From assembly GCF_000725345.1 (NCBI RefSeq), contig NZ_CP008852.1, positions 734,001 to 798,000 on the forward strand: DNA of 64,000 nucleotides, given 5' to 3'. Below the pieces are notes generated by a model. It was given only the letters and a program-made list of their open reading frames with translations, had not been told where the DNA came from and made no database searches. Source of the stretch: Pelosinus sp. UFO1. Lineage in GTDB: Bacteria; Bacillota; Negativicutes; DSM-13327. The translations under genes were made by a program, and so were the position numbers. Below, in pieces: positions 6,062 through 60,156 of this stretch (positions are counted from its first letter, which is position 1; each line of letters begins with the position of its first letter).

Positions 6062-6084
6062 AACTTTAGAGGTGAGACGTAGAA

Positions 6085-6152
6085 CCGTATCATTGGTAAT
6101 AGCGAAAATAGTAGAACTCCTGCCAAACTTGTGGATTTGGCAGGAGTTCTGT
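6085..6152. repeat. Composite intergenic repeat: CGTATCATTGG box plus 15-bp hairpin
   Basis: The box CCGTATCATTGGTAATAGCG (6085-6104) is followed by a perfect 15-bp stem (AGAACTCCTGCCAAA with its complement, loop of 8, ending 6152). The box recurs near 26273, 44774, 50566 and 53300, and the hairpin type recurs in degenerate form near 1796, 21572, 39307, 53362 and 63296. The rest of 6153-6404 is AT-rich with no gene seen. Confidence 0.75.
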
Positions 6153-6404: not shown

Positions 6405-7388
6405 ATGTCTATTTTGTTTATTCAATTAAATGATTGGTTATCCAAAAACATGTTCATCGTAGTGCTTTCTGGACTATTCTTAGGCTTTTTCGTTACTATT
6501 ACTGATTCCCCGTTTCTACGACAAATTGTGGTGGCTTTATTCGCTTACATGACCTTTATCACCGCATTAGGTACAAGTTTTAAGGAATTCACTACCGTGC
6601 TAAAGAAGCCCTGGATTCCTATATGGGTGCTGATTTTAGTTCATTTTGTTACACCGTTGACAGCTTGGGCTGTTGGCATGATCTTCTACCCCAATGATCC
6701 TGACATCCGGCTAGGCTATCTAATCGGCTCTTCAATTCCAATTGGGGTTACATCTATCATCTGGACTTCGTTAATCAAAGGTGATTTAGGCATATCTTTT
6801 GTTGCAGTAACATTGGATACTTTAGTTGTACCTACAGTATTACCGTTATTTTTCCATATTGTTGTTGGCCAAACCATCGACATTAGCTATAGTAAAATGG
6901 TTATCGACCTTATGCTCATGGTTACGGTGCCTAGCATCATCGGTATGCTCCTGCATGATTGGACAAAGGGGAGGAGTGTTAATTTCGCTAACAGCATTGG
7001 GGGTGCCACATCAAAAGGAGCACTTTTTCTGGTCATCCTAATTAATTCAGCAGTCGTAATGCCACAAATTAATTGGGACATCTCCATACTAAAAACATTA
7101 CTCGTTACCTTATTTGTTGTATCAGCAAGCTTCTTTGTCGGTTACCTAGGATCATTTGCATTAAAAGAACGAACTCAGAGTATTATACTAACAATGATTT
7201 TTAATGTGGGCATCCGTAATAACGCTTGTGGACTCGTCATTGCACTCACCTATTTTCCGCCAAGGGTTGCAGTTCCTATGACACTGGCTATTTTGTATCA
7301 GCAGCCACTCGCAACAATTGTATCTCATTTATATAAACGTCTTCAAGCAGCAAAGTGTCAAGGGGACAGGTTCGTTGACATTAGGTAA
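6405..7388 (+). CDS. Bile acid:sodium symporter (BASS) family transporter
   Basis: A 327-residue integral membrane protein with about nine to ten hydrophobic segments. GSSIPIGVTSIIWTSL, TLDTLVVPTVLPLFF and FNVGIRNNACGLVIAL fit the two inverted repeats and the crossover regions of the BASS fold. Family members move bile acids, pantoate or other organic anions with Na+, or arsenite in the related ACR3 group; the substrate cannot be told from sequence. An unusual feature is that the last codons (QGDRFVDIR and stop) lie inside a REP-like palindrome that starts at 7356, so the natural C-terminus has been replaced or extended by repeat DNA. GGAGG precedes the ATG. Confidence 0.85.
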   Translation: MSILFIQLNDWLSKNMFIVVLSGLFLGFFVTITDSPFLRQIVVALFAYMTFITALGTSFKEFTTVLKKPWIPIWVLILVHFVTPLTAWAVGMIFYPNDPDIRLGYLIGSSIPIGVTSIIWTSLIKGDLGISFVAVTLDTLVVPTVLPLFFHIVVGQTIDISYSKMVIDLMLMVTVPSIIGMLLHDWTKGRSVNFANSIGGATSKGALFLVILINSAVVMPQINWDISILKTLLVTLFVVSASFFVGYLGSFALKERTQSIILTMIFNVGIRNNACGLVIALTYFPPRVAVPMTLAILYQQPLATIVSHLYKRLQAAKCQGDRFVDIR

Positions 7389-7449
7389 GCAAAATATAAA
7401 ATGTATAAGTAAGAAAGGCATCTATGTCAAAGGACCTGTCCCCTTGACG
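7356..7449. repeat. REP-like long palindrome (GGGGACAGGT family)
   Basis: GTCAAGGGGACAGGT (7357-7371) and its exact complement (7434-7448) bracket a 62-nt spacer. It overlaps the 3' end of the BASS gene. Half-copies of the same unit lie at 21414-21445. The arrangement is typical of RAYT-mobilised palindromes. Confidence 0.7.
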
Positions 7450-7549
7450 TTGGACATTAAAAATAAATTTGCCGGTTACGGTGGTTGGATGACCACTGTA
7501 ACCGGCTTTTTACTTTTACAATTAAGAATGTTATGTTCTGTACTGCCTA

Positions 7550-7798
7550 TTATTTTGAGTTTTTTTGTAGTGTTTGACATGAAGTATTGCCTAGGACAAT
7601 ATTTTGCGCTTCGCGAGCATATTGACCATCTGACATTGGAGAGATATCGTTAAGAACACCAGAGTAAATACTATGAAAGAAAAACATTACTCCTGATATG
7701 AGTACTACGACGGCAGTTTGGCGTGCTTTGCTTTTTATCATAAATACAACTCCGTCAACGGGTAGTACCGAAAAATTTACTTTTTCGTTTTCACCCAT
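7550..7798 (-). CDS. Possible small single-pass membrane protein
   Basis: A frame of 82 codons starts four bases past the stop of the DUF362 gene, so it could be coupled to it. It has one hydrophobic segment (TAVVVLISGVMFFFHSIYSG) and a polar tail. There is no clear ribosome binding site and I do not recognise a family. It may be real only as a coupled downstream gene. Confidence 0.4.
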   Translation of the reverse strand: MGENEKVNFSVLPVDGVVFMIKSKARQTAVVVLISGVMFFFHSIYSGVLNDISPMSDGQYAREAQNIVLGNTSCQTLQKNSK

Positions 7799-7802
7799 AT
7801 TG

Positions 7803-8909
7803 TTATAGAACAATTAATTCATAATCGCGGCTGCCCATGCCGATTTCTTCTCCATGCCGCATTTGGATAGTGCCGTCGATGTGAGGACGCAAACCATAAA
7901 ACTTGTCTGCCCCGGCTTCAAGGTTGGAAGAAAGCAAAGAGTGAGAGAAACCAAGCTGTTTATTGATTAGGTCATAGCTTGCCTGATCAATAGCTACAGG
8001 GTCAGTGGATGCCAAAAAGCCGATATCAGGAACAATCGGTGCATCGCTCCATGATGCACAGTCACAATCAGGCGTAATGTTCAATAAAAAGTTTATATAA
8101 CCGATACGTTTCTCATGAGTCTTATGAACTCCATAGCCGTACTCGGTCATTCGTTCAAGAAAATCTGCTAGGTCTGTTGCCCAGTCCATTCCGTTGGCTT
8201 TTACCGGACAAACGGTCAAACACTCCCCGCAGCCAATGCATGCATCAGGAGAAACATTTGCCTTCATTTCACTCATGCGAATGGCCGTTTCTGGGCAAAC
8301 CACGCTGCACTTTGAGCAACCAACACATTTTTCTTGATCAACTACAATCTTAAGAGCATGCTGCTCTTTTTTTCCAAGCGCCGGTGCTCCGCCCATAGCC
8401 AGATTTTTTATAGCGCCGCCGAAGCCAGCCATCTCATGACCCTTAAAGTGAGACAATACAATCATACTGTCGGCACTGACAATGTCTGTAGCCAGTTTCA
8501 CTTTACTAAAGTGTTTTTTATCAATCTGTACTTCGGTCATGCTTTCGCTGCGCAGTCCATCGGCTATGATAATGGGAGCTCCTGTAACCGTATAATCAAA
8601 ACCATGTTCCAATGCGGTTAGTAAATGATCAACCGAGTTATGTCTGCTTCCCGAATAAAGCGTATTCGTATCGGTTAGAAAAGGCTTAGCTCCATTTTCT
8701 TTTATCTTATCTACCACTTGCCGCACAAAAACCGGACTAATAAAGCCGTCACTTCCGTGTTCGCCGAAGGTTAGCTTTATAGCTGTAAGGGCATCCTTTT
8801 GGATAAATTCATTAAAACCGGCACGATCAAATAAACTTCTTATTTTGCTGATTTTATTACTTTTGTCTGTTCTCGCTCTAAGGTTTACAAAATATACTTT
8901 GTTGGACAT
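7803..8909 (-). CDS. DUF362 family protein with two [4Fe-4S] ferredoxin motifs
   Basis: A DUF362 domain covers most of the 368 residues (TDTNTLYSGSRHNSVDHL, SHFKGHEMAGFGGAIKNLAM are characteristic). A 2[4Fe-4S] ferredoxin insert at about 195-245 reads CVGCSKCSVVCP and CIGCGECLTVCP. Such proteins are cytoplasmic iron-sulfur proteins of unknown substrate, common in anaerobes and probably electron carriers or reductases. The start at 8909 is preceded by AGGAAGGGG. It is followed by the small membrane protein frame and stands alone otherwise. Confidence 0.9.
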   Translation of the reverse strand: MSNKVYFVNLRARTDKSNKISKIRSLFDRAGFNEFIQKDALTAIKLTFGEHGSDGFISPVFVRQVVDKIKENGAKPFLTDTNTLYSGSRHNSVDHLLTALEHGFDYTVTGAPIIIADGLRSESMTEVQIDKKHFSKVKLATDIVSADSMIVLSHFKGHEMAGFGGAIKNLAMGGAPALGKKEQHALKIVVDQEKCVGCSKCSVVCPETAIRMSEMKANVSPDACIGCGECLTVCPVKANGMDWATDLADFLERMTEYGYGVHKTHEKRIGYINFLLNITPDCDCASWSDAPIVPDIGFLASTDPVAIDQASYDLINKQLGFSHSLLSSNLEAGADKFYGLRPHIDGTIQMRHGEEIGMGSRDYELIVL

Positions 8910-18987: not shown

Positions 18988-19344
18988 ATGATAATTTCAG
19001 AGGTCAGTGAAAAATATGGTATGACACAAGACGCATTGCGCTACTACGAACGAGTTGGTTTGATCCCACCGGTTCCGCGTAAACCAAATGGGATTCGCGA
19101 CTATGACGATTACAGCTGTGGATGGATTGAATTTATTCACTGCATGCGGAAAACGGGTGTTCCAGTAGAAGTCCTTGTTGAATATGTCCAACTTTATCAG
19201 CAGGGAAGTAAAACAAAGGAGATAAGGAAGGAACTTTTACTGGCAGAATTAAACCGTTTAGATGAACGTATTGCAAATTTGCAGGCAACAAGGAAACGAT
19301 TGGCCTCAAAAATTGAAAACTATGATGATCTTGAGAAATCTTGA
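18988..19344 (+). CDS. MerR family transcriptional regulator
   Basis: The protein (118 residues) has the MerR winged helix (MIISEVSEKYGMTQDALRYY, YERVGLIPP, RDYDDYS) and a coiled-coil C-terminus (LLLAELNRLDERIANLQATR). There is no C-terminal effector domain. A cysteine occurs in YSCGWIEFIHC but the metal-binding CxC pairs of CueR/MerR are absent, so it fits the NmlR/AdhR-like aldehyde or thiol-stress branch. AAGGAG eight bases before the ATG at 18988 makes this start better than the GTG at 18979. It probably regulates both divergent promoters upstream. Confidence 0.92.
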   Translation: MIISEVSEKYGMTQDALRYYERVGLIPPVPRKPNGIRDYDDYSCGWIEFIHCMRKTGVPVEVLVEYVQLYQQGSKTKEIRKELLLAELNRLDERIANLQATRKRLASKIENYDDLEKS

Positions 19345-19445
19345 TATGCGGCAACAACCTAGTCAATCTTCATCGCCAAAGAAACCTGGGGTGACTGAGA
19401 CAAGTTCTATAGAAATCGTTCAGATAAATCGGGAGGGAGATTTAG

Positions 19446-20015
19446 ATGAAAATAAAGGGCTCAAAAAAAATCTTTCTTTTGCTGCTGTCTGTGCTTTTAA
19501 TGTTCTCCCTGACTGCTTGCAGCGCTGCTAAGATCTCTGGAGAAACAGCAGCAGGCAGTTCAATTTTCGCCAATTCGGGTTCAACAATGCTAAATTCTGA
19601 GTCATCTAAGGAAAGCAAAGGGAGCAAGAAGACTAGCGGTGTTGAAGGTGAGAAAATGAGAAACGCGAAGATTACAGTAGGTAATAAAGTATTCACTGCG
19701 AAGTTTTATGATAACGAAACAGCACAGGCTTTAGTTTCAAAGTTACCGATGACTGTCAATATGAGTGAACTGAATGGCAAGGAGAAATATTACCATCTGG
19801 TGGAGAATTTGCCTGCCCAATCGACAGAGACGCCTGCAACAATCCATGCAGGCGAGATTATGTGTTGGTCTTCTAATTCCTTGGTGCTATTCTATAATAC
19901 GTATGCCAATTCGTATGGAGGATACGTTAAGCTCGGGTTTATAGAAGACGTTTCCGGACTTACAGAGGCTTTGGGGCAGGGGAATGTGCAAGTGACATTC
20001 GAAGTTAGCAAATGA
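19446..20015 (+). CDS. Lipoprotein with cyclophilin-like domain
   Basis: A lipoprotein signal peptide ends in the lipobox LTAC (Cys about 25). A low-complexity serine/lysine linker follows, then a C-terminal cyclophilin-like fold of about 115 residues (KITVGNKVFTAKFYDNETAQ, LPMTVNMSELNGKEKYYHL, GGYVKLGFIEDV). The domain is of the cyclophilin-like-2 type often found beside flavodoxins and MerR regulators; its ligand is unknown. It lies 101 bp after the MerR gene on the same strand and probably belongs to that operon. Confidence 0.82.
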   Translation: MKIKGSKKIFLLLLSVLLMFSLTACSAAKISGETAAGSSIFANSGSTMLNSESSKESKGSKKTSGVEGEKMRNAKITVGNKVFTAKFYDNETAQALVSKLPMTVNMSELNGKEKYYHLVENLPAQSTETPATIHAGEIMCWSSNSLVLFYNTYANSYGGYVKLGFIEDVSGLTEALGQGNVQVTFEVSK

Positions 20016-20017
20016 AA

Positions 20018-20048
20018 AACTGGATTCCGCATTTGGCGAAATCCAGTT
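20018..20048 (-). terminator. Terminator shared by lipoprotein and rsmH genes
   Basis: AACTGGATT pairs with AATCCAGTT around a 13-nt loop. The minus strand continues into TTTTTC, ending the rsmH transcript; it starts three bases after the lipoprotein stop. Confidence 0.7.
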
Positions 20049-20062
20049 AGAGAATTTTATCT

Positions 20063-21127
20063 TTATGATTTGATTGCCCAACGCAATTTGGCAGAACGGG
20101 CACGGCTATTGATATGGCATTCTTCTGCTGATGCCCGAATAGGATCGGGTGCTATTTCACAATAAACGCCTTCACGAAAAAATTGTCTAAAAGATTTTTT
20201 AACGCGACGATCTTCCCCGGAGTGAAAGGAAAGTATGGCAACGCGCCCACCCGGTGCCAAAGCATTAGGAAGCTTTTCTAGAAATTCGTCTAATACATCA
20301 AATTCCTTATTGACATCAATCCGCAATGCTTGGAAGGTTCGTTGACAAGATTTTTTAATATCATCTTTGGTGACTTTTTGAACATATTTCAGAGCATCTG
20401 TGATGATATTTCGAAGCTCAGTTGTTGTCGATATAACAGTTCCTTTTTTAATGTTGGAAGTAATAGCACGAGCGATTACCTCGGCATGAGGCTCGTCAGC
20501 ATTTTCTATCAGCATATCTTGTAATTCATCTTGAGATATCTTCTTTAAAAGGCTTGCTGCAGAGTAACCCGCTTTCGGATTAAGCCTTAAGTCCAATGGT
20601 CCTTCATACTTAAATGAAAAGCCTCTTTCAGGATTATCTATTTGCATAGAGGAAATACCCAAGTCTGCCAAGACAAAATTAAATAGCCCTGATTCGGGAA
20701 TGATTTGATCTATTTTGGAAAAGTTCATTTGCTTGATCTCTAAAATTTCGGGACCATAACCCAAACGCTCTAAACGCTCTTTGGTGCGCGGCAATTCAAG
20801 AGGATCTACATCCGTTGCATACAAGCGCCCCTTTGAATTTAAACATTTAAGCATCTCTAAGGTATGACCACCATAACCTAGTGTTGCGTCTAAGCCTATT
20901 TGTCCCGGTGTAATTTGTAAGAAATCCAATATTTCTTTAACGCAGATTGAAATATGCATACCAGCAGGCGTATTGCCCTTTTGGATAATTTTTGCCACAT
21001 CATCCGCATATTGCTCTGGTTGCAGTTCCTTATATTTTTCTTTAAAATTCTTAGGGTGAGTGCCTTTATAGCGAACACGTCGCTGATGTTTGGGCTCTTG
21101 CTCATCCAATGTGTGATCTGGGGCCAT
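20063..21127 (-). CDS. RsmH-type 16S rRNA (cytosine-N4) methyltransferase, stand-alone copy
   Basis: Typical RsmH/MraW motifs are present: DATLGYGGHT (SAM site, about residue 95), ADLGISSMQIDNPERGFSF, EGPLDLRLNP, RTFQALRIDVN and ILSFHSGEDRRVKKSF. RsmH modifies C1402 of 16S rRNA. This copy has a basic 45-residue N-terminal extension and lies away from any dcw cell-division cluster. It is therefore likely a second RsmH paralogue of the kind seen in clostridia; a housekeeping copy would be expected elsewhere. I leave the symbol open for that reason. Confidence 0.88.
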   Translation of the reverse strand: MAPDHTLDEQEPKHQRRVRYKGTHPKNFKEKYKELQPEQYADDVAKIIQKGNTPAGMHISICVKEILDFLQITPGQIGLDATLGYGGHTLEMLKCLNSKGRLYATDVDPLELPRTKERLERLGYGPEILEIKQMNFSKIDQIIPESGLFNFVLADLGISSMQIDNPERGFSFKYEGPLDLRLNPKAGYSAASLLKKISQDELQDMLIENADEPHAEVIARAITSNIKKGTVISTTTELRNIITDALKYVQKVTKDDIKKSCQRTFQALRIDVNKEFDVLDEFLEKLPNALAPGGRVAILSFHSGEDRRVKKSFRQFFREGVYCEIAPDPIRASAEECHINSRARSAKLRWAIKS

Positions 21128-21235
21128 TCTATTCCCTCATTTTTATCATATATTTTTGTACTTTTGTTACAGATATATGATAGCAGGTACAATTTATTAA
21201 AGCAACTGCAACAGTAGAATAGGTAAATGAGTACA

Positions 21236-21273
21236 GCCCCTATCCTCGGAATGTTGAGGATAGGGGCTTTTTT
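21236..21273. repeat. CCCCTATCCTC hairpin, terminator-like
   Basis: GCCCCTATCCTC pairs with GAGGATAGGGGC (21256-21267) and is followed by TTTTTT. Related hairpins occur at 27361, 28404, 34567 and 39175. Confidence 0.7.
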
Positions 21274-21333
21274 GTCGTTGGGAGATATGGTTTATGCTCT
21301 TTTTAGAAGGGATTTTATTGTTGTAAGGAGGGG

Positions 21334-21445
21334 AAGGGTCAATGTTATTAACGCTTCGCCGTGATACTTAACCTTCGCTTATAATAACATTGACCCTTTG
21401 CTCTAGATAAGAAAGGCACTATGTCGAAGGACCTGTCCCCTTGAC
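21334..21445. repeat. Nested REP-like palindrome and half unit
   Basis: A 17-bp perfect stem (21334-21350 with 21382-21398; arm AAGGGTCAATGTTATTA) is followed by one arm of the GGACCTGTCCCCTTGAC repeat (21428-21445). A degenerate CCTGTCAAA..TTTAGCAGGGATT hairpin lies at 21572-21612 and a CGGGT-CAA-ACCCG hairpin near 21685. No gene is seen in 21128-21733. Confidence 0.65.
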
Positions 21446-21733
21446 ATTCGCGTTTAGCTTTTTCAAGTTTTTTTGTGCAAATAAGTCAATTTTAAACAAC
21501 TCAAGCCTGACCCCACTGACTTCCGTCCGTTTACGAGAACCATATTATTTACAATGGTGGAATAGAGAGAATTCCTGTCAAATCCTGTTGGATTTAGCAG
21601 GGATTCTTTGTTTTTTATGGAATTTTATAACTTATAGAATAAAATGCTGTGGGAATAACCCGATGGAGCCGTCCCCTTGAGTACTCGGGTCAAACCCGGT
21701 TTTAGCGAGCAACCTTATAAAGGGAGTGATTAC

Positions 21734-22735
21734 TTGGATAACGCTCAATATATTTTAAAACAAATACTTGAGGGAAAATACCAAAGAATAATGCAGTTTA
21801 TAAGTGACGGGCAGGAAGAGCATCTTTGGTTGGACTTTAAGGAGAACTCAGACCCAACGCGCCCAGGTATCTCAGGTGACGATAAAAAGAACTATGCCAA
21901 AGCTCTTTCTGGGTTCTCAAATGCCAACGGTGGAGTAGTCGTATGGGGTATTAAGGCACGAAAGGAGAGCAGTCATTCTCCTGATGTCGCTTGCGAATCT
22001 AAACCAATAATGAATGTTAAGCGCTTTTTAACGGACTTAAACAGTATAACGGGTAGTGCGTTAGTGCCAGTTAATAATGGTATTCAAAATCAGATTATCT
22101 TTGTCGATAATGATGAAAGCAGAGATGAAGGTTTCGTAGTTACATATGTTCCCGAAACAGATGGATTACCCCATCGTGCAATGTGTAGAGAGAACATTTA
22201 CTATACCAGGTCAGGCGATAGTTTCTATATGTTAGAGCACCATCAGTTGGCAGATATGTTTGGAAAACGCCAAAAGCCAGATTTACATATTTTCTATCGT
22301 TTGCAAAAAAGGCAGGTTGGTGACAAATTTAAGTTAGAACTTATAGTAGGTATCGAAAATAAAGGGCGGTATCTTGCAACGTATCCTGCACTAAGGCTAA
22401 AGCCTATCCAACGCTTAGAATTATCTCGTTTCGGGGTTAACGGAAACAGTGGAGGGTGGGTACTCTTTCCTCAGGTTCAGTCCCACGAGTCAATTCGTGA
22501 TCAGGGACAACTTTTCTCTGGTGGCGTTAATGATACCATATACCCTCAAACAAAGCTTGAGGTTGCAGTGCTCGACTCGACAATTGAAATTCATCGTGAC
22601 CAGTACATATTCGAAGTAAATCCCAACACTACAGTATTCCTATTCAGTTATGAGATATTCTGTGAAGGATGTCCGACGAAAAGCGGTGAAGTAGCTGTTA
22701 CAGAGGATAAACTTAAATTATTTATTGAATTGTAA
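21734..22735 (+). CDS. AlbA_2 (Schlafen AAA_4) domain protein
   Basis: The protein (333 residues) has an N-terminal AlbA_2 domain with the hallmark LDFKEN, then NYAKALSGFSNANGGVVVWG and IYYTRSGDSFYML. The second half (about 185-333) is a beta-rich region (LHIFYRLQKRQVGDKFKLEL, LRLKPIQRLELSRFG) that I do not recognise; it may be an Ig-like sandwich. AlbA_2 proteins bind nucleic acid or nucleotides and are common in defence loci. AGGGAG seven bases before the TTG at 21734 makes this the preferred start over the in-frame TTG at 21677. It lies 46 bp before the DUF4238 gene. Confidence 0.82.
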   Translation: MDNAQYILKQILEGKYQRIMQFISDGQEEHLWLDFKENSDPTRPGISGDDKKNYAKALSGFSNANGGVVVWGIKARKESSHSPDVACESKPIMNVKRFLTDLNSITGSALVPVNNGIQNQIIFVDNDESRDEGFVVTYVPETDGLPHRAMCRENIYYTRSGDSFYMLEHHQLADMFGKRQKPDLHIFYRLQKRQVGDKFKLELIVGIENKGRYLATYPALRLKPIQRLELSRFGVNGNSGGWVLFPQVQSHESIRDQGQLFSGGVNDTIYPQTKLEVAVLDSTIEIHRDQYIFEVNPNTTVFLFSYEIFCEGCPTKSGEVAVTEDKLKLFIEL

Positions 22736-22781
22736 ACCCAGCACTTCGATTGTCAGATCGCCATACGGAAAGGAGGACATT

Positions 22782-23747
22782 ATGCCGCTCGACCATTACG
22801 TGTCGCAAGTCCATCTCAGAAATTTCTACTCACAGAAGCTTGAAGTCTTAATGTATGCTATCCGAAAGACTGATCTAAAGTCATTCAAAACCAACTCGGA
22901 ATCAGTGTGTAGAATTGAAGAAGGAAATACGAACTTGTACCTACAAGAAGATCAACGAGCAGTCGAAAAGTTTCTTAAAGGCATTGAGCCGAAGTATAAT
23001 AAAGCGCTCGAAAAGTTAACAACTAACAACATCGACCAAGAATGTGTATATGTAATCGCTGGATTCGTCGCATATGTTCTCACGTGCTCACCAGCAGGTA
23101 TGCGCATTCAGTCAGTACCGCTAAAGAATTTTGTTGAGGAGACTGAGCGGATAATTGACTCACAGGGGATATCTATTCCTCCACCATCTGAACTCGGTGG
23201 TGAAAGTCTAACCGAGTTATTGATCAGCGATAAGGTGCAACTAACAATCGATCCCAAATATCCACAGGCAATTGGCATTGCTTCGATATCCTCTCTGACA
23301 GCGGCGTTTGGGAATTGCATATGGGACGTTCTCATTAACCCCTTTGACGATACCCCTTTCTTTACAAGTGACTTTCCTATCGCAATTGAAGAGACCGAAG
23401 ATATTCGTATTATCAATAGAATTGTTCCTCTTTCTCCGAAGATCGCGATTAGAATACGTCCCAATCTCACGATCGACAGAGATCACACTGACTTCTCTTT
23501 CTCAAACTTTCGCTATGCCGTTCGAAAGTTAAGTCGTAAAGAAGTGGTTGGCATTAACAGGCTAATTGTTCGTTGTGCTGAGAGTGTAGTATTTTTTCGC
23601 GATGACCACGAGTGGATTAGCAAGTTTGTGAAGAAAAATGCTACGTTTCGCATTGAAATGAATACATACAGGATGCCTCGTGGAAAGGGGACACTTCTTG
23701 GGTCTATGCTAAAGGTAGTTGATAACAAACGTGGTATTATATCATAA
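22782..23747 (+). CDS. DUF4238 family protein
   Basis: The 321-residue protein starts MPLDHYVSQVHLRNFYSQ, the conserved opening of DUF4238, and later has NPFDDTPFFTSDFPIAIEE and PLSPKIAIRIRP, also typical of the family. The function is unknown; members occur singly and in defence islands. AAAGGAGG precedes the ATG at 22782. Pairing with the upstream AlbA_2 gene in one operon suggests they act together. The mixed content of arginine-rich and charged segments gives no membrane span. Confidence 0.82.
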   Translation: MPLDHYVSQVHLRNFYSQKLEVLMYAIRKTDLKSFKTNSESVCRIEEGNTNLYLQEDQRAVEKFLKGIEPKYNKALEKLTTNNIDQECVYVIAGFVAYVLTCSPAGMRIQSVPLKNFVEETERIIDSQGISIPPPSELGGESLTELLISDKVQLTIDPKYPQAIGIASISSLTAAFGNCIWDVLINPFDDTPFFTSDFPIAIEETEDIRIINRIVPLSPKIAIRIRPNLTIDRDHTDFSFSNFRYAVRKLSRKEVVGINRLIVRCAESVVFFRDDHEWISKFVKKNATFRIEMNTYRMPRGKGTLLGSMLKVVDNKRGIIS

Positions 23748-23791
23748 AACTGACAGTTGGTACGATCCTTTTTTGACAACTTTATGTTGCA

Positions 23792-23815
23792 GGAAAGGGA
23801 ACGTCCCCAGTGTCC
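23792..23815. repeat. GGGAACGTCCCCAGTGTCC repeat unit
   Basis: This unit separates the AlbA_2/DUF4238 pair from the ATPase/HNH pair. Near copies are at 34511-34536, 36414-36440, 41988-42016 and 52330-52360, often preceded by GGTGACGAAAGG. Confidence 0.65.
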
Positions 23816-23869
23816 TTATTTTTATCGGACAGTAATTTTTTGAAAATAAGTAAGGGGTGGTGGGGTAGA

Positions 23870-25198
23870 ATGGAACTTAAACACGTATTCATCAATCAGT
23901 ATCGAGGAATTAGAAACCTGTCATTAAATTTTGGAATTCCTAAATCGAATGCGGATCTATTTGGTGATTTAAAGATCTCTGTTTTAGTCGGAGAAAATGG
24001 AACTGGGAAGACATCAATCTTTAAGTTGTTAACACTTGCCCTATGCCCACAACTTAACGTCGCTGAAGAAAACTATTCTTGTAGAATTCACTATACTATT
24101 AATAATCAGGATTACAAATTTGAAAATGGAATACCAGAGAGCATGGGCATCAATGAGTATCCTAATAAAGTTATAGTTTCTTCTTTCTCGGTATTTGATC
24201 AGTTTGTCCCCCCGAGGAAAGTTAACAGAGATTCAAAAATAGAGGATGGTTCCCGCTATGTCTATGGTGGACCACTAAATGGCATAAATTCATCTAGTTT
24301 GACTACTGTTATTCAGATTTTGTTAGAAACCTTTTATAAGACGAAAAAAAATAATGAACAATATAATGCATATAGAAAGATGTTAGAGGTAATTGGATAC
24401 GGAGATATTCAATATCTAGAGTTTTCCTTAAATTCAGATAATTATGGAATAGGTTCGCGCTATCAGGATAAGTTACTTGAAAATGAAGAGTATCACGTAG
24501 AATACAATAATCGAAAAAAACTACGAGAGAAAACTCGGAGAATTAGAATAAAAAAATCCAATTTCCCTCATCGAGCTGGATATATTGTCGCAATAGACGA
24601 TATTGACGAGTGTCTTTTTGAGCTGATGCTTGATGTTATAGCACAAGGGTTTTGTCCAATACGCGATGTCTGGATACGTAAAGATAATTCTGTTGTACCA
24701 CTATCACGTATGAGTTCCGGGGAGTTAACAATGCTATTCAGGTTTTTTCCTCTAATTTCAGAAATTACTCATAACTCACTTGTTTTGATTGATGAGCCTG
24801 AGACACATTTGCACCCCAAGTGGGTGCAACGATATATTTATCATTTGGTAAAAATCTTCAGTAGCTTTAAGGCTCATATTATTTTGGCTACACATTCTCC
24901 ACTAATCACAGCAGATGTTCCTGTAGAATGTATTGTGGGATTGATGAGAGACAGTCACAATATAATAAGTCAATATCCCATTCCGGAGAAAACTTTGGGT
25001 GGAAATCCTGAAGATATTATGAAAGCCGTTTTTGGCTTAAACCAAATAAATAGTGAATTTACAAACGGTATAATGGAAAAAATTTCGCAGCTCCTAGGAG
25101 AGCAGAAAAGGGATACTGCTTTAGAGTTATATAGTAATTTAAGTAACACAACTGAAAAATATAATCTATTTTTGAAAATTAGGGATAAATTGGAGTAG
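23870..25198 (+). CDS. Septu-like AAA/ABC-type ATPase (PtuA-like)
   Basis: A 442-residue SMC/ABC-type ATPase with N-terminal FINQYRGIRNLSLNFG, Walker A GENGTGKTS (about residue 40), a variable helical middle, signature SRMSSGELTMLFRF, Walker B LVLIDEPETHLHP and the H-loop ATHSPL. This is the OLD/AAA_15-AAA_21 class used in Septu (PtuA), retron and Gabija-like systems. The stop is four bases before an HNH-nuclease gene. I start at the ATG at 23870 because earlier in-frame codons read through repeat DNA. No TOPRIM domain is fused, so it fits PtuA better than OLD/GajA. Confidence 0.85.
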   Translation: MELKHVFINQYRGIRNLSLNFGIPKSNADLFGDLKISVLVGENGTGKTSIFKLLTLALCPQLNVAEENYSCRIHYTINNQDYKFENGIPESMGINEYPNKVIVSSFSVFDQFVPPRKVNRDSKIEDGSRYVYGGPLNGINSSSLTTVIQILLETFYKTKKNNEQYNAYRKMLEVIGYGDIQYLEFSLNSDNYGIGSRYQDKLLENEEYHVEYNNRKKLREKTRRIRIKKSNFPHRAGYIVAIDDIDECLFELMLDVIAQGFCPIRDVWIRKDNSVVPLSRMSSGELTMLFRFFPLISEITHNSLVLIDEPETHLHPKWVQRYIYHLVKIFSSFKAHIILATHSPLITADVPVECIVGLMRDSHNIISQYPIPEKTLGGNPEDIMKAVFGLNQINSEFTNGIMEKISQLLGEQKRDTALELYSNLSNTTEKYNLFLKIRDKLE

Positions 25199-25202
25199 AA
25201 CT

Positions 25203-26216
25203 ATGTGGAAGATACAAACAACAAAAATCAATGAAATATATAGATTTACCGATTACTTCATAAAGGATTTAATGGACTGGGCTATTGCTAACCCTAATAT
25301 TCAATGCACAGAGTTTGATACAATACAGAGTACAAAAATTAATGATAAGCTAAAAAGTCTTGCAGAAAGATATGAAGTCTTAAGACGAATCATGTCTCAA
25401 TTATCCTGTGCACCGGATATTAAAAACATATCAGAAGCATATGTAATGTGTACAACTTGCTACAAAGATATTCTGAATGGAAGTATGAACTCTCCATTAT
25501 TAGAAGCTGAAACTAAGACGATGGTTATAAAAGCTTTTAGGTATTTTTATAACTACTTGATTGACCAAGAATATTTCTGGCATACTTATAATCAATACGA
25601 TCCATTTGTCTCTAAGTCGCAATTTAGGCAGGATGTAGGGATGAAAAGGAAGGTTTGTCCGTATTGTGATGCTAGTAAAATTACTACTTCTCGGCGAACA
25701 AACACTGATCATTTTTTGCCAATAACGCAAGTTCCTTTGCTGGGAATATATTGGGAGAATTTGATTGTATCATGTGTTTCTTGTAATAATATTTTGGTTA
25801 AGGGAGATGATTTTAAGCTTCCGATAACACATCCCTTTTTTGACGAAACAGCAGATCATGTCTTTTTTTCGTTTGATGATAAATTACATACTATTGATAT
25901 AAATGGTGCTACAGATGCCGAAAAGAATTTTATCGAAGTTTTTAAGTTAAAAGATACATATAAAAATGAATGGGATCAAGTAAGTTTTACTCACAAATTG
26001 TTGACGAAAAGAATTATTAAACGGTTTAAGAATACTCCTAATAAGGATGACATACCTTTGCTTATAAATGAAGAAGTTGCAGATTACATGGCGATATTAT
26101 ATGATTTTGTACGGCGAAAAGAGTATACAAAATTAAATCTCGAGGTTTGTAATTATTTTAAAGCACTTCATCTAGATGCGTTTACTAGCTACTTATTATT
26201 TGAAGAGACTCTTTAA
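25203..26216 (+). CDS. HNH endonuclease, Septu PtuB-like
   Basis: The 337-residue protein carries a zinc-HNH core in the middle: CPYCDASK (about residue 157), TDHFLPI and YWENLIVSCVSCNNILVKGD. The C-x2-C, D-H and C-x2-C plus N arrangement is the HNH pattern seen in PtuB and retron Septu partners. The N-terminal 150 and C-terminal 120 residues are helical with no recognised domain. Only four bases separate it from the ATPase gene, so the two are one unit. It would cut DNA or RNA when the ATPase senses infection; the target is unknown. Confidence 0.82.
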   Translation: MWKIQTTKINEIYRFTDYFIKDLMDWAIANPNIQCTEFDTIQSTKINDKLKSLAERYEVLRRIMSQLSCAPDIKNISEAYVMCTTCYKDILNGSMNSPLLEAETKTMVIKAFRYFYNYLIDQEYFWHTYNQYDPFVSKSQFRQDVGMKRKVCPYCDASKITTSRRTNTDHFLPITQVPLLGIYWENLIVSCVSCNNILVKGDDFKLPITHPFFDETADHVFFSFDDKLHTIDINGATDAEKNFIEVFKLKDTYKNEWDQVSFTHKLLTKRIIKRFKNTPNKDDIPLLINEEVADYMAILYDFVRRKEYTKLNLEVCNYFKALHLDAFTSYLLFEETL

Positions 26217-26245
26217 AGTATGTTATTTTCAGAAGACGAAAAAAA

Positions 26246-26293
26246 TTTGCCGTTACCAATGATACGGTGAAACGTATCATTGGTAACGGCAAA
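26246..26293. repeat. Perfect 21-bp-stem palindrome after the HNH gene
   Basis: TTTGCCGTTACCAATGATACG (26246-26266) and its exact complement (26273-26293) flank the loop GTGAAA. It is the most complete copy of the CGTATCATTGG repeat and begins 30 bp after the HNH stop. Confidence 0.85.
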
Positions 26294-26303
26294 AAACTAT
26301 AAT

Positions 26304-26346
26304 AAAGACACAGCCTATCCCTTAGCGCAACAGGGCCGTGTCTTTT
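26304..26346 (+). terminator. Intrinsic terminator after the defence genes
   Basis: AAAGACAC pairs with GTGTCTTT, with a further GC-rich inner stem and T4 at the end. It would stop transcription from the ATPase/HNH operon before the RNA region. Confidence 0.65.
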
Positions 26347-26503
26347 GACAGATATCCACTCAGTTGACCGAGTAATTGAGACAGGTACGTTGACACTTGA
26401 GTAAGAAAAAGCTAAATTTAAAAGAAAAACCGCCCATTACAGCGGAGCATTTTAGCACATTCATTTTTATAAAATAACAACAGCTTTTCCACTTTACTTT
26501 CTC

Positions 26504-26531
26504 TTGCAATCCCCATAAAAAGTAATATAAT
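26504..26531 (+). promoter_or_regulatory. Sigma-A-type promoter of the candidate RNA gene
   Basis: TTGCAA (26504-26509) and a consensus TATAAT (26526-26531) are 16 bp apart. The predicted start is near 26538. No coding frame with a ribosome binding site follows for almost 480 bp. Confidence 0.7.
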
Positions 26532-26537
26532 TAGTAA

Positions 26538-26797
26538 TAGGTGGAAATTAAAAAGTCGCCGTGTCCTAAGAGTGTTGGCGCACTCCTAGGCACGAGCAGG
26601 TGAACAGAGCACCTACACGTAACAGCTAGCTGTCTACGACGACAATTTATTATACCGTGAACTTTCCTTGAAGACAAGGGATGGTATGTTCGGGGGATAA
26701 TAGGATTGTGGTGTATTGGCAGAGGCTTTGCGTCTGCATGCAATCAAGATGAAGCAAAGCGCATGTGTAGGTTGAATAGACCTCGCATGCGCTTTTT
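26538..26797 (+). ncRNA. Candidate structured small RNA of about 260 nt
   Basis: The stretch has a strong promoter, no credible coding frame, many self-complementary blocks and a clear terminator. Visible stems are: CGTG-CCTAAGAGTG with CACTCCTAGG-CACG (26560-26594); AGGTG/CACCT (26598-26614); palindrome ACAGCTAGCTGT (26621-26632); a long hairpin ACAAT..TATTAT..ATACC with GGTAT..ATAATA..ATTGT (26642-26709); GCTTTGC/GCAAAGC (26725-26760); and a terminator with a GCGCATG/CATGCGC stem then T5 (26756-26796). It does not show the signatures of tmRNA, SRP RNA, RNase P RNA or the common riboswitches, and its ends do not pair as in 6S RNA. The class is unknown. Confidence 0.6.
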
Positions 26798-26800
26798 AAT

Positions 26801-26883
26801 TTCCCCCAAAACAGCTGTTTGCTGGTTTCTTCTATCTGCAAAGACGGATAGAAGAAACTTCATGCAGTATGAAGATGGGGGGA
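26801..26883 (+). ncRNA. Candidate four-way-junction (cloverleaf-like) RNA element
   Basis: Four helices stack with almost no unpaired junction bases. P1 is TTCCCCCA (26801-26808) with TGGGGGGA (26876-26883); P2 is CAGC/GCTG (26812-26824); P3 is a perfect 12-bp stem (26825-26836 with 26847-26858) that extends by two pairs; P4 is TTCAT/ATGAA (26859-26873). The layout recalls a tRNA, but there is no T-loop GTTCRA, no CCA and no plausible anticodon arm, so it is not a tRNA gene. It could be a leader element for the gene at 27017 or the far end of the RNA above. Confidence 0.55.
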
Positions 26884-27016
26884 TATATAGTGGTGTCAGT
26901 AGAAGGTAAGAGATGGGTAATGCTTATAAAAAGAAGATTACATGGAGTACACGGATAAGGACAATTGATTAAGGAGATAGCAGGAGTTCATTTTAAATAC
27001 TAAGGAGAGGATTATT

Positions 27017-27310
27017 GTGAAAAAAGAAAGCCTTTTTGAATGTGCAATGGATTCTATGGAGGATATTAGCCTTAACATACCACTACAGCAAATATCAAAC
27101 GACTATTATTATTCCAATATAGCGGCTAAAGAATATGAAGAGGAACTACGTGCAGCACTCCCACAGAATTTACACCTCATTTTAAGTAGGCTTGCGGATA
27201 AAAACAATGAAAGGGAAGCAGCGAGTATGGCTGTTAGTTATCGGCAAGGGTTTTCTGACTCCATACGATTTATTATGCAGGCATTGTCCTGGGAGCCGTC
27301 AAGGCGGTGA
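27017..27310 (+). CDS. Small hypothetical protein (97 aa)
   Basis: A helical, acidic protein starting with GTG after AGGAGAGG. The C-terminal half (LSRLADKNNEREAASMAVSY, RQGFSDSIRFIMQALSW) resembles small DUF6809-like proteins of Firmicutes, a family with no known function; this is an impression, not a match. Its last 14 codons and the terminator are duplicated at 37194-37285. It is 133 bp downstream of the cloverleaf-like element, which could sit in its leader. Confidence 0.65.
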   Translation: MKKESLFECAMDSMEDISLNIPLQQISNDYYYSNIAAKEYEEELRAALPQNLHLILSRLADKNNEREAASMAVSYRQGFSDSIRFIMQALSWEPSRR

Positions 27311-27328
27311 TTTTTTGGCAATTAAATG

Positions 27329-27356
27329 AAAGGTACTCTGTAAAGGGTGCCTTTAT
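27329..27356 (+). terminator. Terminator of the 97-aa protein gene
   Basis: AAAGGTACTCT pairs with AGGGTGCCTTT through two G-U pairs. The same hairpin accompanies the duplicated gene tail at 37258-37285. Confidence 0.6.
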
Positions 27357-27360
27357 TTGA

Positions 27361-27412
27361 AAATGATAACGTCCCTATCCTCAGAGTGCCGAGGGTAGGG
27401 ACGTTATCATTT
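27361..27412. repeat. 52-bp hairpin repeat, copy at 39175-39229
   Basis: AAATGATAACGTCCCTATCC begins a 22-bp stem (one G-U pair) with an 8-nt loop. The same sequence occurs at 39175, where it directly follows the 41-bp repeat. It ends convergently with the flavin reductase gene. Confidence 0.8.
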
Positions 27413-27424
27413 GTATTGGGTCGC

Positions 27425-27964
27425 TCACGATTCGATAATATATGCACTAACGATCTCTCCGTAATAAGCGGTATGAAAATCCTTGTTTCTACTGTGAAAG
27501 GAACTATCAACGTCCTGTGGGTAAAAGATAGTCTTGTTTTCTTCTGTAATTTCACACTCATCTTGTTTTTGCTTGTATATAACCCTACACTCAAGCGTTA
27601 AAGGAAGTTCCTTAATAGCAGGAACAGAAACAGTATTAGGTGTTTCAAGTGTCAAGTTAAGTTCTTTGATTTTATCAATTGTACGACCGGATTTTGTCCC
27701 GCAAATCGCTAATATCTTTTTGTCAAAAGCACCATATGGTATATTTATTGTGAATTCAGGATTTTTATCAAGTTGATGTTTTGTAAAACGATTTTCTCTA
27801 ACGAAAACGGTAAAAATGGGTTTTGCCCATTCAATTCCGAGTGTACCCCAAGAAATAGTCATAGAGTTTACTTTGTCATCTACCTTCGTCGTCACCAAAA
27901 CACCTGTTTTGACCGCTTTCATAATTTCATTCGCATAATCAAATACTTCAATCTTTTTTTTCAT
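27425..27964 (-). CDS. Flavin reductase family protein
   Basis: The 179-residue protein is a split-barrel FMN-binding protein of the flavin reductase/flavoredoxin family (VLVTTKVDDKVNSMTISWGT, PIFTVFVRENRFTKHQL, FTINIPYGAFDKKILAICG, KSGRTIDKIKEL). It probably carries FMN and transfers electrons from a ferredoxin or NAD(P)H. GGAGG precedes the start. It is divergent from an HxlR regulator with a 107-bp shared promoter region, so HxlR likely controls it. Confidence 0.9.
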   Translation of the reverse strand: MKKKIEVFDYANEIMKAVKTGVLVTTKVDDKVNSMTISWGTLGIEWAKPIFTVFVRENRFTKHQLDKNPEFTINIPYGAFDKKILAICGTKSGRTIDKIKELNLTLETPNTVSVPAIKELPLTLECRVIYKQKQDECEITEENKTIFYPQDVDSSFHSRNKDFHTAYYGEIVSAYIIES

Positions 27965-28071
27965 AGTGCTAAGCCTCCTTGAAACTTCGATGTTTCTATG
28001 GTAAACTAATATGCGCTTGATAACAAGTATGCACTTTTTTGTGAGATACTATCCAAAAGGAGAGTATGTGT

Positions 28072-28398
28072 ATGGTTCAAGAAGATGAGGTATTTTCCGC
28101 ACCATTTGAATATACATTGTCAATCATTGGTGGAAAGTGGAAAATGATTATAATGTTTTGGTTGTCTAAACGAAAAATAATAAGATATGGAGAATTAAAA
28201 AAATTAATAAAAGGTATTACTCATAAAATGTTAAGTAGCCAACTAAAAGAACTTGAACATGAAGGAATTATTATTCGCAAAGAATATCATCAAGTTCCAC
28301 CTAAAGTAGAATATTCTTTGTCAGAGAAAGGCTGGACTCTTATGCCTATATTAGAGGAAATGTGCAAATGGGGACATTTGTATTTTGAAGACAAATAA
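28072..28398 (+). CDS. HxlR family transcriptional regulator
   Basis: A winged-helix protein of 108 residues with the family core FEYTLSIIGGKWKMIIMFWL and GITHKMLSSQLKELEHEGII. The cysteine that usually precedes the first helix of redox-sensing HxlR proteins (C-P-V-E) is replaced by alanine (SAPFEY), so a thiol-based switch like HypR or YodB at that position is unlikely. ATG at 28072 is nine bases after AAGGAG and is preferred to the ATG at 28066. It is divergent from the flavin reductase gene. Confidence 0.9.
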   Translation: MVQEDEVFSAPFEYTLSIIGGKWKMIIMFWLSKRKIIRYGELKKLIKGITHKMLSSQLKELEHEGIIIRKEYHQVPPKVEYSLSEKGWTLMPILEEMCKWGHLYFEDK

Positions 28399-28403
28399 TT
28401 TTG

Positions 28404-28440
28404 AAATGAGTACCGCCCCTATCCTCAGTAGATTGGGGGT
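28404..28440. terminator. Hairpin between convergent HxlR and YkvI-like genes
   Basis: ACCGCCCCTATCCTCA pairs imperfectly with TGGGGGTAGAGGCGGT and is followed by TTTTG. It belongs to the CCCCTATCCTC hairpin family. Confidence 0.65.
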
Positions 28441-28458
28441 AGAGGCGGTTTTGTGCTT

Positions 28459-29610
28459 TTAAACTGCTTTATCAAGTTTATGTTCCTTTCTGAGCGTAGC
28501 ATTTTTTCTGATTTTGATCGTACCGATAATAATCTCTGGAAGTAAGACAAAGAATAGGCCGATATAACCAACGGAACCGTATCCCTTGACAACGATATTC
28601 GTTAAGCCAAAGACAGAGATACCTGTGCATATTACGATAGTAATAAGAGAAATGGCGATTCTACGAGTTCTCAATTGTTTGAAAATATTTCTTTTACTCA
28701 ACACGGGCTCGAAACGAGCGACTGTAGAAAATATTAAGGAAATTGCAGTACCTAGTAATGCTACAAACAAAATGACACTGTATAGAATTTTTAGCCAAGG
28801 CAAGTCAAGTTTGGTAGTGACAAAATATACTGGTAATGTCTGATTGAGAACTTCTGGGGAAAAGCCTAGCAGCATGATACAAATAATTGCTAGAAATCCA
28901 CCGTTTAGAATCGTGCCAAACAGCATAAACCGATTGCAGTCCTGAGTCGTTTTAATATTATGCGAGACAGAGATGATTGGTAGCACTGTGAAAGCTTGAA
29001 AGCCAATGTAAATTAACATATGCCAAACCGCATCTCCTAAGCTGGTATCAAAGGTTTCATGAGTAGCCAGAATTCGCTCGAAATTAAAGGCACCCATTTG
29101 AATACCTAGTACGCAGAGAAGTAGAAGGGTAACGATGATAAAGTACGTCTTAAGATTTAAGACTTTAATAATTAATTCGCTGCCAAATATGGTTAATAAC
29201 AATACAATAAGTCCCACGGCTACGATGCCGATTCCATAAGGAATTCCCAGAGAACTATTTAATAGGGCACCTGAACCTGCAATGGAAGTACTTACACCAC
29301 ATACAATCAACAGGATAAAACCCAACTCAAATATAAGGGAAAAATATTTTTCATAAGGGTGAAAAAGAGCATCACAAAAACTTTTATAATCATAGGTTTT
29401 ATAATCTTTTGCCAAGACCAGTGCATTCCGATGCCCCCATCCTAACAATAGCATGGCAATCAGAGGGAGAAAAAGTGAGTACCAGCCATATTTTACAAAG
29501 TAATTAACTTCTTGGTTCCCGGTAGCAAAGCCTCCGCCACTATGGGTTGCAAACCATACAGCCGCCATGGCAAATGCTGTTCCTATTGAACCAGATTTTG
29601 AATTTCCCAT
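28459..29610 (-). CDS. YkvI-like APC-superfamily membrane transporter
   Basis: A 383-residue protein with ten to eleven hydrophobic segments. The N-terminus SIGTAFAMAAVWFATHSGGG with FATGNQE, and the later PIISVSHNIKT, fit the uncharacterised YkvI family of LeuT-fold transporters. The long leader is a T-box riboswitch with a UGGU antiterminator bulge, so expression responds to the uncharged state of one tRNA. The transporter therefore probably imports, or exchanges, that amino acid; the specifier reads most simply as leucine. It is transcribed alone. Confidence 0.85.
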   Translation of the reverse strand: MGNSKSGSIGTAFAMAAVWFATHSGGGFATGNQEVNYFVKYGWYSLFLPLIAMLLLGWGHRNALVLAKDYKTYDYKSFCDALFHPYEKYFSLIFELGFILLIVCGVSTSIAGSGALLNSSLGIPYGIGIVAVGLIVLLLTIFGSELIIKVLNLKTYFIIVTLLLLCVLGIQMGAFNFERILATHETFDTSLGDAVWHMLIYIGFQAFTVLPIISVSHNIKTTQDCNRFMLFGTILNGGFLAIICIMLLGFSPEVLNQTLPVYFVTTKLDLPWLKILYSVILFVALLGTAISLIFSTVARFEPVLSKRNIFKQLRTRRIAISLITIVICTGISVFGLTNIVVKGYGSVGYIGLFFVLLPEIIIGTIKIRKNATLRKEHKLDKAV

Positions 29611-34510: not shown

Positions 34511-34608
34511 CAGAAAAGAAACGTCCCGTGTGTCCAATTTGGAAAGGTTCCAGTAAGCAAGGCTTAGCAACCGCCCCTATCCTCAGAATGTTGAGGGGAG
34601 GGGCGGTT
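34511..34608. repeat. Repeat cluster with a fragment of an OYE gene tail
   Basis: AAACGTCCCGTGTGTCC (34519-34535) is followed by a 29-bp sequence (34541-34569) that matches the last codons of the OYE gene (15858-15886) with one mismatch. It is then fused to a CCGCCCCTATCCTC hairpin (34571-34608). This looks like the trace of a deleted OYE paralogue. Confidence 0.65.
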
Positions 34609-34648
34609 TTATTAGGGAAAAACTTTGCCGCTTTTGGCAAAAGTACTA

Positions 34649-39136: not shown

Positions 39137-39229
39137 CGTGGTTTTTTAGTGAAGTCATTAACAGTAGAGTAATAAAAATGATAACGTCCCTATCCTCAGA
39201 GTGCCGAGGGTAGGGACGTTATCATTTTT
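39137..39229. repeat. Fused 41-bp and 52-bp repeats
   Basis: The 41-bp repeat (39137-39177; copy at 16002) runs directly into the 52-bp hairpin (39175-39229; copy at 27361). A degenerate GGCAGGAGTTC element follows at 39307-39340. No gene is seen in 39043-39515. Confidence 0.75.
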
Positions 39230-41810: not shown

Positions 41811-42016
41811 TGGATTTAGCACTTTTCTAAGTCTTTGGTGCTTAGTATAAGTGAGTTTGAATATATAGCAGGATTTAGTATTTGTAAAAGAGAAGCTAAT
41901 AAAAACAATTTAGAATTATCGTTTTTAATTAGGACAAGGAACCTGTCCCTTGTAAGATGTAGTATAGAAGGGTTATTTTGGAGATGGTGACGAAAGGAAA
42001 CGTCTCCAGTGTCCTA

Positions 42017-50552: not shown

Positions 50553-50625
50553 CCGATACGGGGAACCGTATCATTGATAACGGTGCAAAATGTCCTCAAT
50601 CCTTGTGTATGCAGGGATTGAGGAC
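50553..50625. repeat. GATACGG box and hairpin after the MFS gene
   Basis: CCGATACGG-GGA-ACCGTATC forms a small hairpin (50553-50572), then ATTGATAACGGTGCAAAA, then an 11-bp stem GTCCTCAATCC/GGATTGAGGAC with CTTTTC, which ends the methyltransferase transcript on the minus strand less clearly than the plus. A GGGGACGGAGTTGTCGG unit is at 50391. No gene is seen in 50320-50674. Confidence 0.75.
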
Positions 50626-52053: not shown

Positions 52054-52474
52054 TATGAATAACAGATGATTTTGTCAATCCAATAAGTTGATTTATATTT
52101 TGAATACTTTAACGATCTCCATGATAAACTTAGCGGATTTTGTTACGCACAATCCAGTAATGCAAGGAATTTACGATGAAAAGACGATTTTATTGACACA
52201 AAATGGGTAGATTTACAAGTTCTCGGATCGCGTATAGTGCTCCTGTCCAGATGGAAAAAACTCGCTGTTTGATCCGATACGCAGAACTGTATCATCTTCC
52301 CATCATTTAATATACGTACTTTTTGGATATGGTGACGAAAGGGAACGTCCCCAGTGTCCTATCCAGTGTTACGTTCCTGCTAAAATATGGAGTACTATTA
52401 CCTCTGCCAGGCTGTAAGAAGGTATCACACAAAAAGATTGTGAGTTTCTGAAATACTCTATTTAGTTAGATAAG

Positions 52475-53284: not shown

Positions 53285-53401
53285 CCCGCACCATTTGACC
53301 CGATACGGAGAAACGCATCATTGGTAATGGCGAAAAATAACTTGTTATATACAAAAATAGTCGAAGTTCCTGCAGAAAGTTCTGATACTTTGCAGGAACT
53401 T
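53285..53401. repeat. Composite GATACGG box and CCTGC hairpin
   Basis: CCGATACGGAGAAACGCATC (53286-53305) and ATTGGTAATGGCGAAAAA are followed by a GAAGTTCCTGCAGAAAG / CTTTGCAGGAACTTC stem (53361-53401). The order box-then-hairpin is the same as at 6085-6152. Confidence 0.7.
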
Positions 53402-60030: not shown

Positions 60031-60156
60031 CTGTAGTTATAAAAGGATGGTAAGTAGAAACTTATCATTTATAATGACGAAAGAATCCCCTGCCGCAATT
60101 GAAGTGCACCCTAGTTCGGGAAGATAAAAAAACACCATATGTAGGATTACTTGAAA

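Follow-up and report, generated by a model that had tools for sequence, protein, structure and literature searches.

A probable composite defence island of Schlafen-like, DUF4238 and Septu-like genes in a strain-variable chromosomal spot

The locus analysed here, which lies in a window of 64 kb (the whole stretch of DNA that was examined, 64,000 nucleotides), is very probably a small defence island of composite make-up, assembled from separately acquired units that came together in a strain-variable chromosomal spot. The units would be a stand-alone Schlafen-like gene (gene 1), a stand-alone DUF4238 gene (gene 2) and a two-gene Septu-like PtuAB system (genes 3 and 4). An ORF check of the window placed the four genes in a row, all on the + strand, just where the first-pass annotation of this DNA had put them, and the hairpins that it had described on both sides of the island were found at 21235-21268 and 26246-26293. 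Its reading of the locus as a defence island holds as well, with PADLOC and Pfam matches among the genes and a variable spot that has other contents in same-genus genomes. The island appears to be an ordinary composite built from already described kinds of genes, for which an antiviral role is probable. No other convincing defence gene was found in the 64-kb window, the remaining genes of which are metabolic and regulatory. These results remove a false lead, that of a new two-gene system, and divide the locus into three units, each open to testing by itself.

On one side of the block is an rsmH-like gene, at 20063-21127, and on the other, at 27017-27310, a DUF6809 gene. Two same-genus genomes have the same flanks, about 89-95% identical, which hold 6.7 kb and 4 kb, respectively, and no match to genes 1-4 was found between them; likewise, genes 1 and 3 had no good match in nine family-mates. 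The G+C content is 41-42% in genes 1-2 as compared to 31-34% in genes 3-4, and relatives of PtuAB and of the AlbA_2 gene were found among members of the host phylum and in Priestia, with the nearest ones of gene 2 lying elsewhere (see below). Since the G+C contents are unlike and the nearest relatives belong to different lineages, the genes were presumably acquired separately, and on the simplest reading the locus looks like a variable spot that gathered separate defence genes. The flanking rsmH-like (MraW) gene is itself an extra copy, whose conservation within part of the family is 86-98%; the genome has another, more distant copy at a different place. In one of the same-genus genomes (G401; L153 1000-13000) this gene is broken up, and holds a group II intron-type reverse transcriptase ORF of 469 aa (7013-8422).

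Genes 3 and 4 code for a PtuA-like ABC ATPase of 442 aa (23870-25198, + strand, starting with the ATG at 23870) and a PtuB-like HNH endonuclease of 337 aa (25203-26216, + strand), the latter starting 4 nt past the end of the former. The ATPase scores 73 bits against Pfam AAA_21, matches PtuA structures in the PDB, and has intact motifs (Walker A VGENGTGKTS, SSGE, LIDEPETHLHP and ATHSP); the Walker A, SSGE and DEPETHLHP elements pointed out in the first-pass annotation are all present, and the ATPase motifs are invariant among relatives. Gene 4 carries a zinc/HNH core of the form CPYC ... TDHF ... NL ... CVSCN, in which C152, C155, D169, H170, N186, C191 and C194 are invariant (7 aligned sequences). 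Its score against Pfam HNH, 18.7 bits, is below the cut-off of 21.4, and it does match PADLOC PtuB with 46 bits. In the PADLOC check that had been proposed for the locus, the PtuA and PtuB profiles matched genes 3 and 4 and none matched gene 1; the best models were PtuA (149 bits) and PtuB (46 bits), followed by the candidate PDC-M01/M62 pairs (44 bits for PDC-M62B with gene 4). When gene 4 relatives were drawn from 400 genomes of the phylum and one Priestia plasmid, a PtuA-like ATPase adjoined 7 of the 8 (own copy left out). The proposal of a Septu-like PtuA/PtuB pair is thus upheld by the intact motifs, the PADLOC matches and this linkage.

About 145 residues at the N-terminus of the gene 4 product are additional, and its nearest relatives have them too; solved PtuB chains measure 215-216 aa as compared to its 337 aa. 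No reverse transcriptase gene was seen among the ORFs around the pair, where the gene upstream is that for DUF4238, an Rfam search of 19000-29000 gave no match, and a PtuB scan of viral contigs retrieved nothing. A retron I-A identity was rejected for want of a reverse transcriptase and because the NCBIfam Ec78 PtuA/PtuB models scored far below cut-off. Given the ATPase-HNH linkage and the lack of a reverse transcriptase, we class the pair, from its sequence, as Septu type I-like, its PtuB being of enlarged size.

Gene 2 (22782-23747, + strand) begins with the ATG at 22782, preceded by GGAAAGGAGG as ribosome-binding site, and codes for a DUF4238 protein of 321 aa that matches the Pfam family over its full length (residues 5-275; 81.5 bits against a cut-off of 27). 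A lone DUF4238 gene from a P2-phage hotspot, belonging to another subfamily than gene 2, conferred strong T7 resistance on E. coli (Rousset et al. 2022, PMC9122126), so that the domain is already known in defence, and later surveys list DUF4238 among defence systems. When the rhizobial DUF4238 proteins (as an alignment) and that of the window served as queries, in a scan whose patterns favour close members, the gene 2 subfamily was retrieved at 80 loci in genomes and 3 in viruses, spread over Nitrospinota, Nitrospirota, Planctomycetota, Proteobacteria and other lineages; a genome-contig scan with a single DUF4238 protein found nothing. The nearest relatives, up to 69% identical, are from Nitrospinota, Planctomycetota and Proteobacteria. 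Among phylum-mates of the host, just 16 of 398 have a DUF4238 protein above the Pfam cut-off, and none of 397 other genomes of the phylum has a member of the gene 2 subfamily. With such close relatives in other phyla and the subfamily missing from phylum-mates, the distribution of gene 2 points to horizontal transfer.

The AlphaFold model of the gene 2 protein is confident (pLDDT 88). Against the PDB, neither a Foldseek search of this model (best E 0.06, probability 0.13) nor VIA-align (best Z 2.5 over 61 residues) gave a convincing match, which is no proof of a new fold. One confident match was obtained in a viral library, to the uncharacterised phage Smp131 protein V9IQH5 (E 3e-9), and DUF4238 had no match in the phage collection. 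Several positions are kept in near and distant members alike (H5, L12, L65, E69, F95, T195-S196-D197, P199, P216 and N259), which suggests that they form a putative active site. DUF4238 emerges from these searches as a defence family found across many phyla, with no regular partner in the surveyed subfamily and a confident predicted fold without a PDB match.

The first-pass annotation had taken the AlbA_2 and DUF4238 genes for a coupled unit, which it regarded as either a new two-gene module or an accessory pair of a Septu variant. The pairing was unseen in every set that we examined, and the co-occurrence search proposed along with it turned up the AlbA_2-DUF4238 adjacency in no other genome examined, the outcome that the annotation itself had named as a refutation. 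From 82 DUF4238 subfamily loci we took 219 neighbours with a length of at least 120 aa. These formed clusters of at most three and were nearly all single; since no cluster is larger than three, DUF4238 has no regular partner in this subfamily. The lack of a conserved neighbour in these 82 loci agrees with single-gene action on genomic grounds, as distinct from functional ones. AlbA_2 was absent from the 124 Pfam-scanned neighbours of the subfamily loci, from 80 proteins that surround distant DUF4238 genes at 14 sites in the host phylum (Bacillota), and from the DUF4238 neighbourhoods of four rhizobial plasmids, where HipA, Fic, AbiJ-like and PtuAB-like genes were seen. In the opposite direction, a six-frame search with the gene 1 profile retrieved no relative in the vicinity of a DUF4238 gene, and that with a DUF4238 profile gave nothing around the relatives of gene 1 or of PtuAB. 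On the Bradyrhizobium plasmid pUSDA123-1 (L023 6959-12225), a DUF4238 gene is located upstream of an ATPase-HNH pair, with a few genes in between, an arrangement in which defence genes cluster, but as no fixed unit.

If genes 1 and 2 were a novel defence module, in which, for instance, DUF4238 served a Schlafen-type effector as sensor or partner, this would agree with their shared strand, the gap of 46 nt, the similar G+C content and the separate ribosome-binding sites. Such a module is nevertheless very unlikely, given the lack of pairing in the 82 subfamily loci, the 14 distant Bacillota places and the four rhizobial plasmids, the lack of DUF4238 near AlbA_2 relatives, and the activity of DUF4238 alone in E. 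coli. What the earlier claim of novelty loses is the new two-gene system, which does not recur in the genomes examined; its DUF4238 component had already been described as a single-gene antiphage system. Since the two genes are 46 nt apart and alike in G+C, they may be co-transcribed, and one could imagine a rare module, recently assembled in this strain, in which a co-transcribed AlbA_2 protein modifies DUF4238 activity; we give this version little credence. To read genes 1 and 2 as accessory genes of a Septu variant, and the locus as one four-gene system, is to rely on adjacency and a common strand and on nothing else. Neither gene is carried by the PtuAB relatives, the two halves differ in G+C and in the lineage of their relatives, and a dispersed repeat stands between them, all of which makes a four-gene system extremely improbable. 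We therefore retain a composite of separately acquired units, in which the AlbA_2 gene would stand by itself.

Gene 1 (21734-22735, + strand) codes for a Schlafen-like AlbA_2 protein of 333 aa, with the AlbA_2 domain at residues 29-163 and a C-terminal half that received no domain assignment. The TTG at 21734 is preferred as its start because it is preceded by the ribosome-binding site AAAGGGAGTG. The match to Pfam SLFN_AlbA_2 is real but weak, just above the cut-off (about 27 bits, 26.8-27.0, against 25.3). Built from gene 1 together with five relatives, a profile matches the solved structures of CbCash and of mammalian SLFN5, 8, 12, 14 and 11 in the PDB; from its name and this match, we take CbCash (PDB 9ylu) to be a bacterial Schlafen. 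The protein carries E29-x4-D34-x-K36, in agreement with the Schlafen motif. Three positions past the glycine of 'G-I/V' (G+3), the residue is Glu in relatives and Asp in SLFN5 and CbCash, but Ala75 in this protein; by this mapping, which is by alignment only, its acidic residues are E29 and D34, with A75 at the third position and E78 nearby. An E/E/D active site has been described for SLFN/SAMD9L (PMC11221667). If Ala75 is the third acidic site, the nuclease site would be incomplete, and the protein would be more likely to bind RNA or DNA than to cut it. A single-sequence AlphaFold model of the protein alone was unusable (pLDDT 32). In a survey of 400 members of the phylum, the relatives of gene 1 stand alone, next to spore germination, peptidase, conjugation and recA genes, and an AlbA_2 scan of viral contigs and the phage collection gave no match.

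These observations bear on whether gene 1 belongs to the defensive content of the island at all. An ordinary AlbA_2 nucleic-acid binder or regulator, with no part in defence and next to defence genes by chance, could well have alanine at G+3 in place of the Glu of relatives and the Asp of SLFN5 and CbCash, relatives next to spore, peptidase and RecA genes, and no PADLOC match. Its place within a defence-rich variable spot argues the other way, as do bacterial Schlafens that, according to a preprint cited in PMC12839542, take part in antiphage defence. We consider a non-defence gene 1 rather unlikely, yet serious enough to be kept in mind, and continue to count the gene among the units of the composite island.

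The intergenic stretch between the two halves (23748-23869, + strand) contains the single repeat noted earlier between genes 2 and 3. It is a dispersed 18-nt motif, GGAACGTCCCCAGTGTCC, present at 23798 and in 4 copies genome-wide, 3 of them within 757-786 kb (window positions 23798-23815, 41997-42014 and 52342-52359). A link of this motif to a Y1/RAYT transposase was unsupported, with one Y1 transposase and 4 motif copies in the genome. At the upstream edge, the terminator-like hairpin at 21235-21268 (+ strand) belongs to the CCCCTATCCTC...GAGGATAGGGG family, which the 5.1 Mb genome contains at only 7 sites. Six of these sites fall between 733 and 773 kb, so that the repeat is regional, not genome-wide. 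Copies within the window lie at 21235-21268, 27361-27412, 28404-28454, 34570-34610 and 39183-39223, and such hairpins are also found near the same flanks in relatives. After gene 4, a perfect 21-bp hairpin (about 26246-26295), terminator-like on the - strand, folds at -35.9 kcal/mol (z -11). It is a member of a second dispersed hairpin family of the window (CGTATCATTGGTAACGG), seen at 6073-6108, 26246-26295, 50554-50589, 53301-53336 and 60048-60083. The window also contains two pairs of long direct repeats, 36457-36990/40363-40893 (about 530 nt) and 44768-45112/50560-50906 (about 345 nt), and their 95-99% identity suggests recent local duplications.

By analogy with described relatives, the PtuA ATPase would most likely restrain the PtuB HNH nuclease until infection frees PtuB to cut tRNA or DNA. 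The PtuAB of an E. coli Septu system (PMC13096335) and that of retron-Eco7 (PMC11555353) both cleave tRNA-Tyr, and another PtuAB is cited in PMC11555353 as nicking DNA (Li et al. 2024). The relatives of the other two proteins suggest that DUF4238 most likely works alone, via its conserved H / E / TSD-P / N site, and that the AlbA_2 protein would bind RNA and possibly cut it.

Compared with known systems, gene 1 shares with the bacterial Schlafen/AlbA_2 protein CbCash (PDB 9ylu) an AlbA_2 domain with E29-x4-D34-x-K36, and differs from it by Ala75 at the third acidic position, another C-terminal half, and its stand-alone state. In common with the DUF4238 antiphage system of Rousset et al. 2022, gene 2 has a full-length Pfam DUF4238 domain, stands alone, and shows a mobile, patchy spread in defence-rich sites; from other Bacillota DUF4238 proteins it is set apart as a distinct subfamily, with about 18-20% identity. 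Genes 3 and 4 differ from retron I-A / Septu II in having neither a reverse transcriptase nor msr-msd. With Septu type I they have in common that an HNH nuclease comes directly after an ABC ATPase and that all catalytic motifs are kept, whereas the PtuB encoded by gene 4 is longer (337 aa, with its N-terminal extension of about 145 residues) and in length comes nearer to the PADLOC candidate PDC-M62B.
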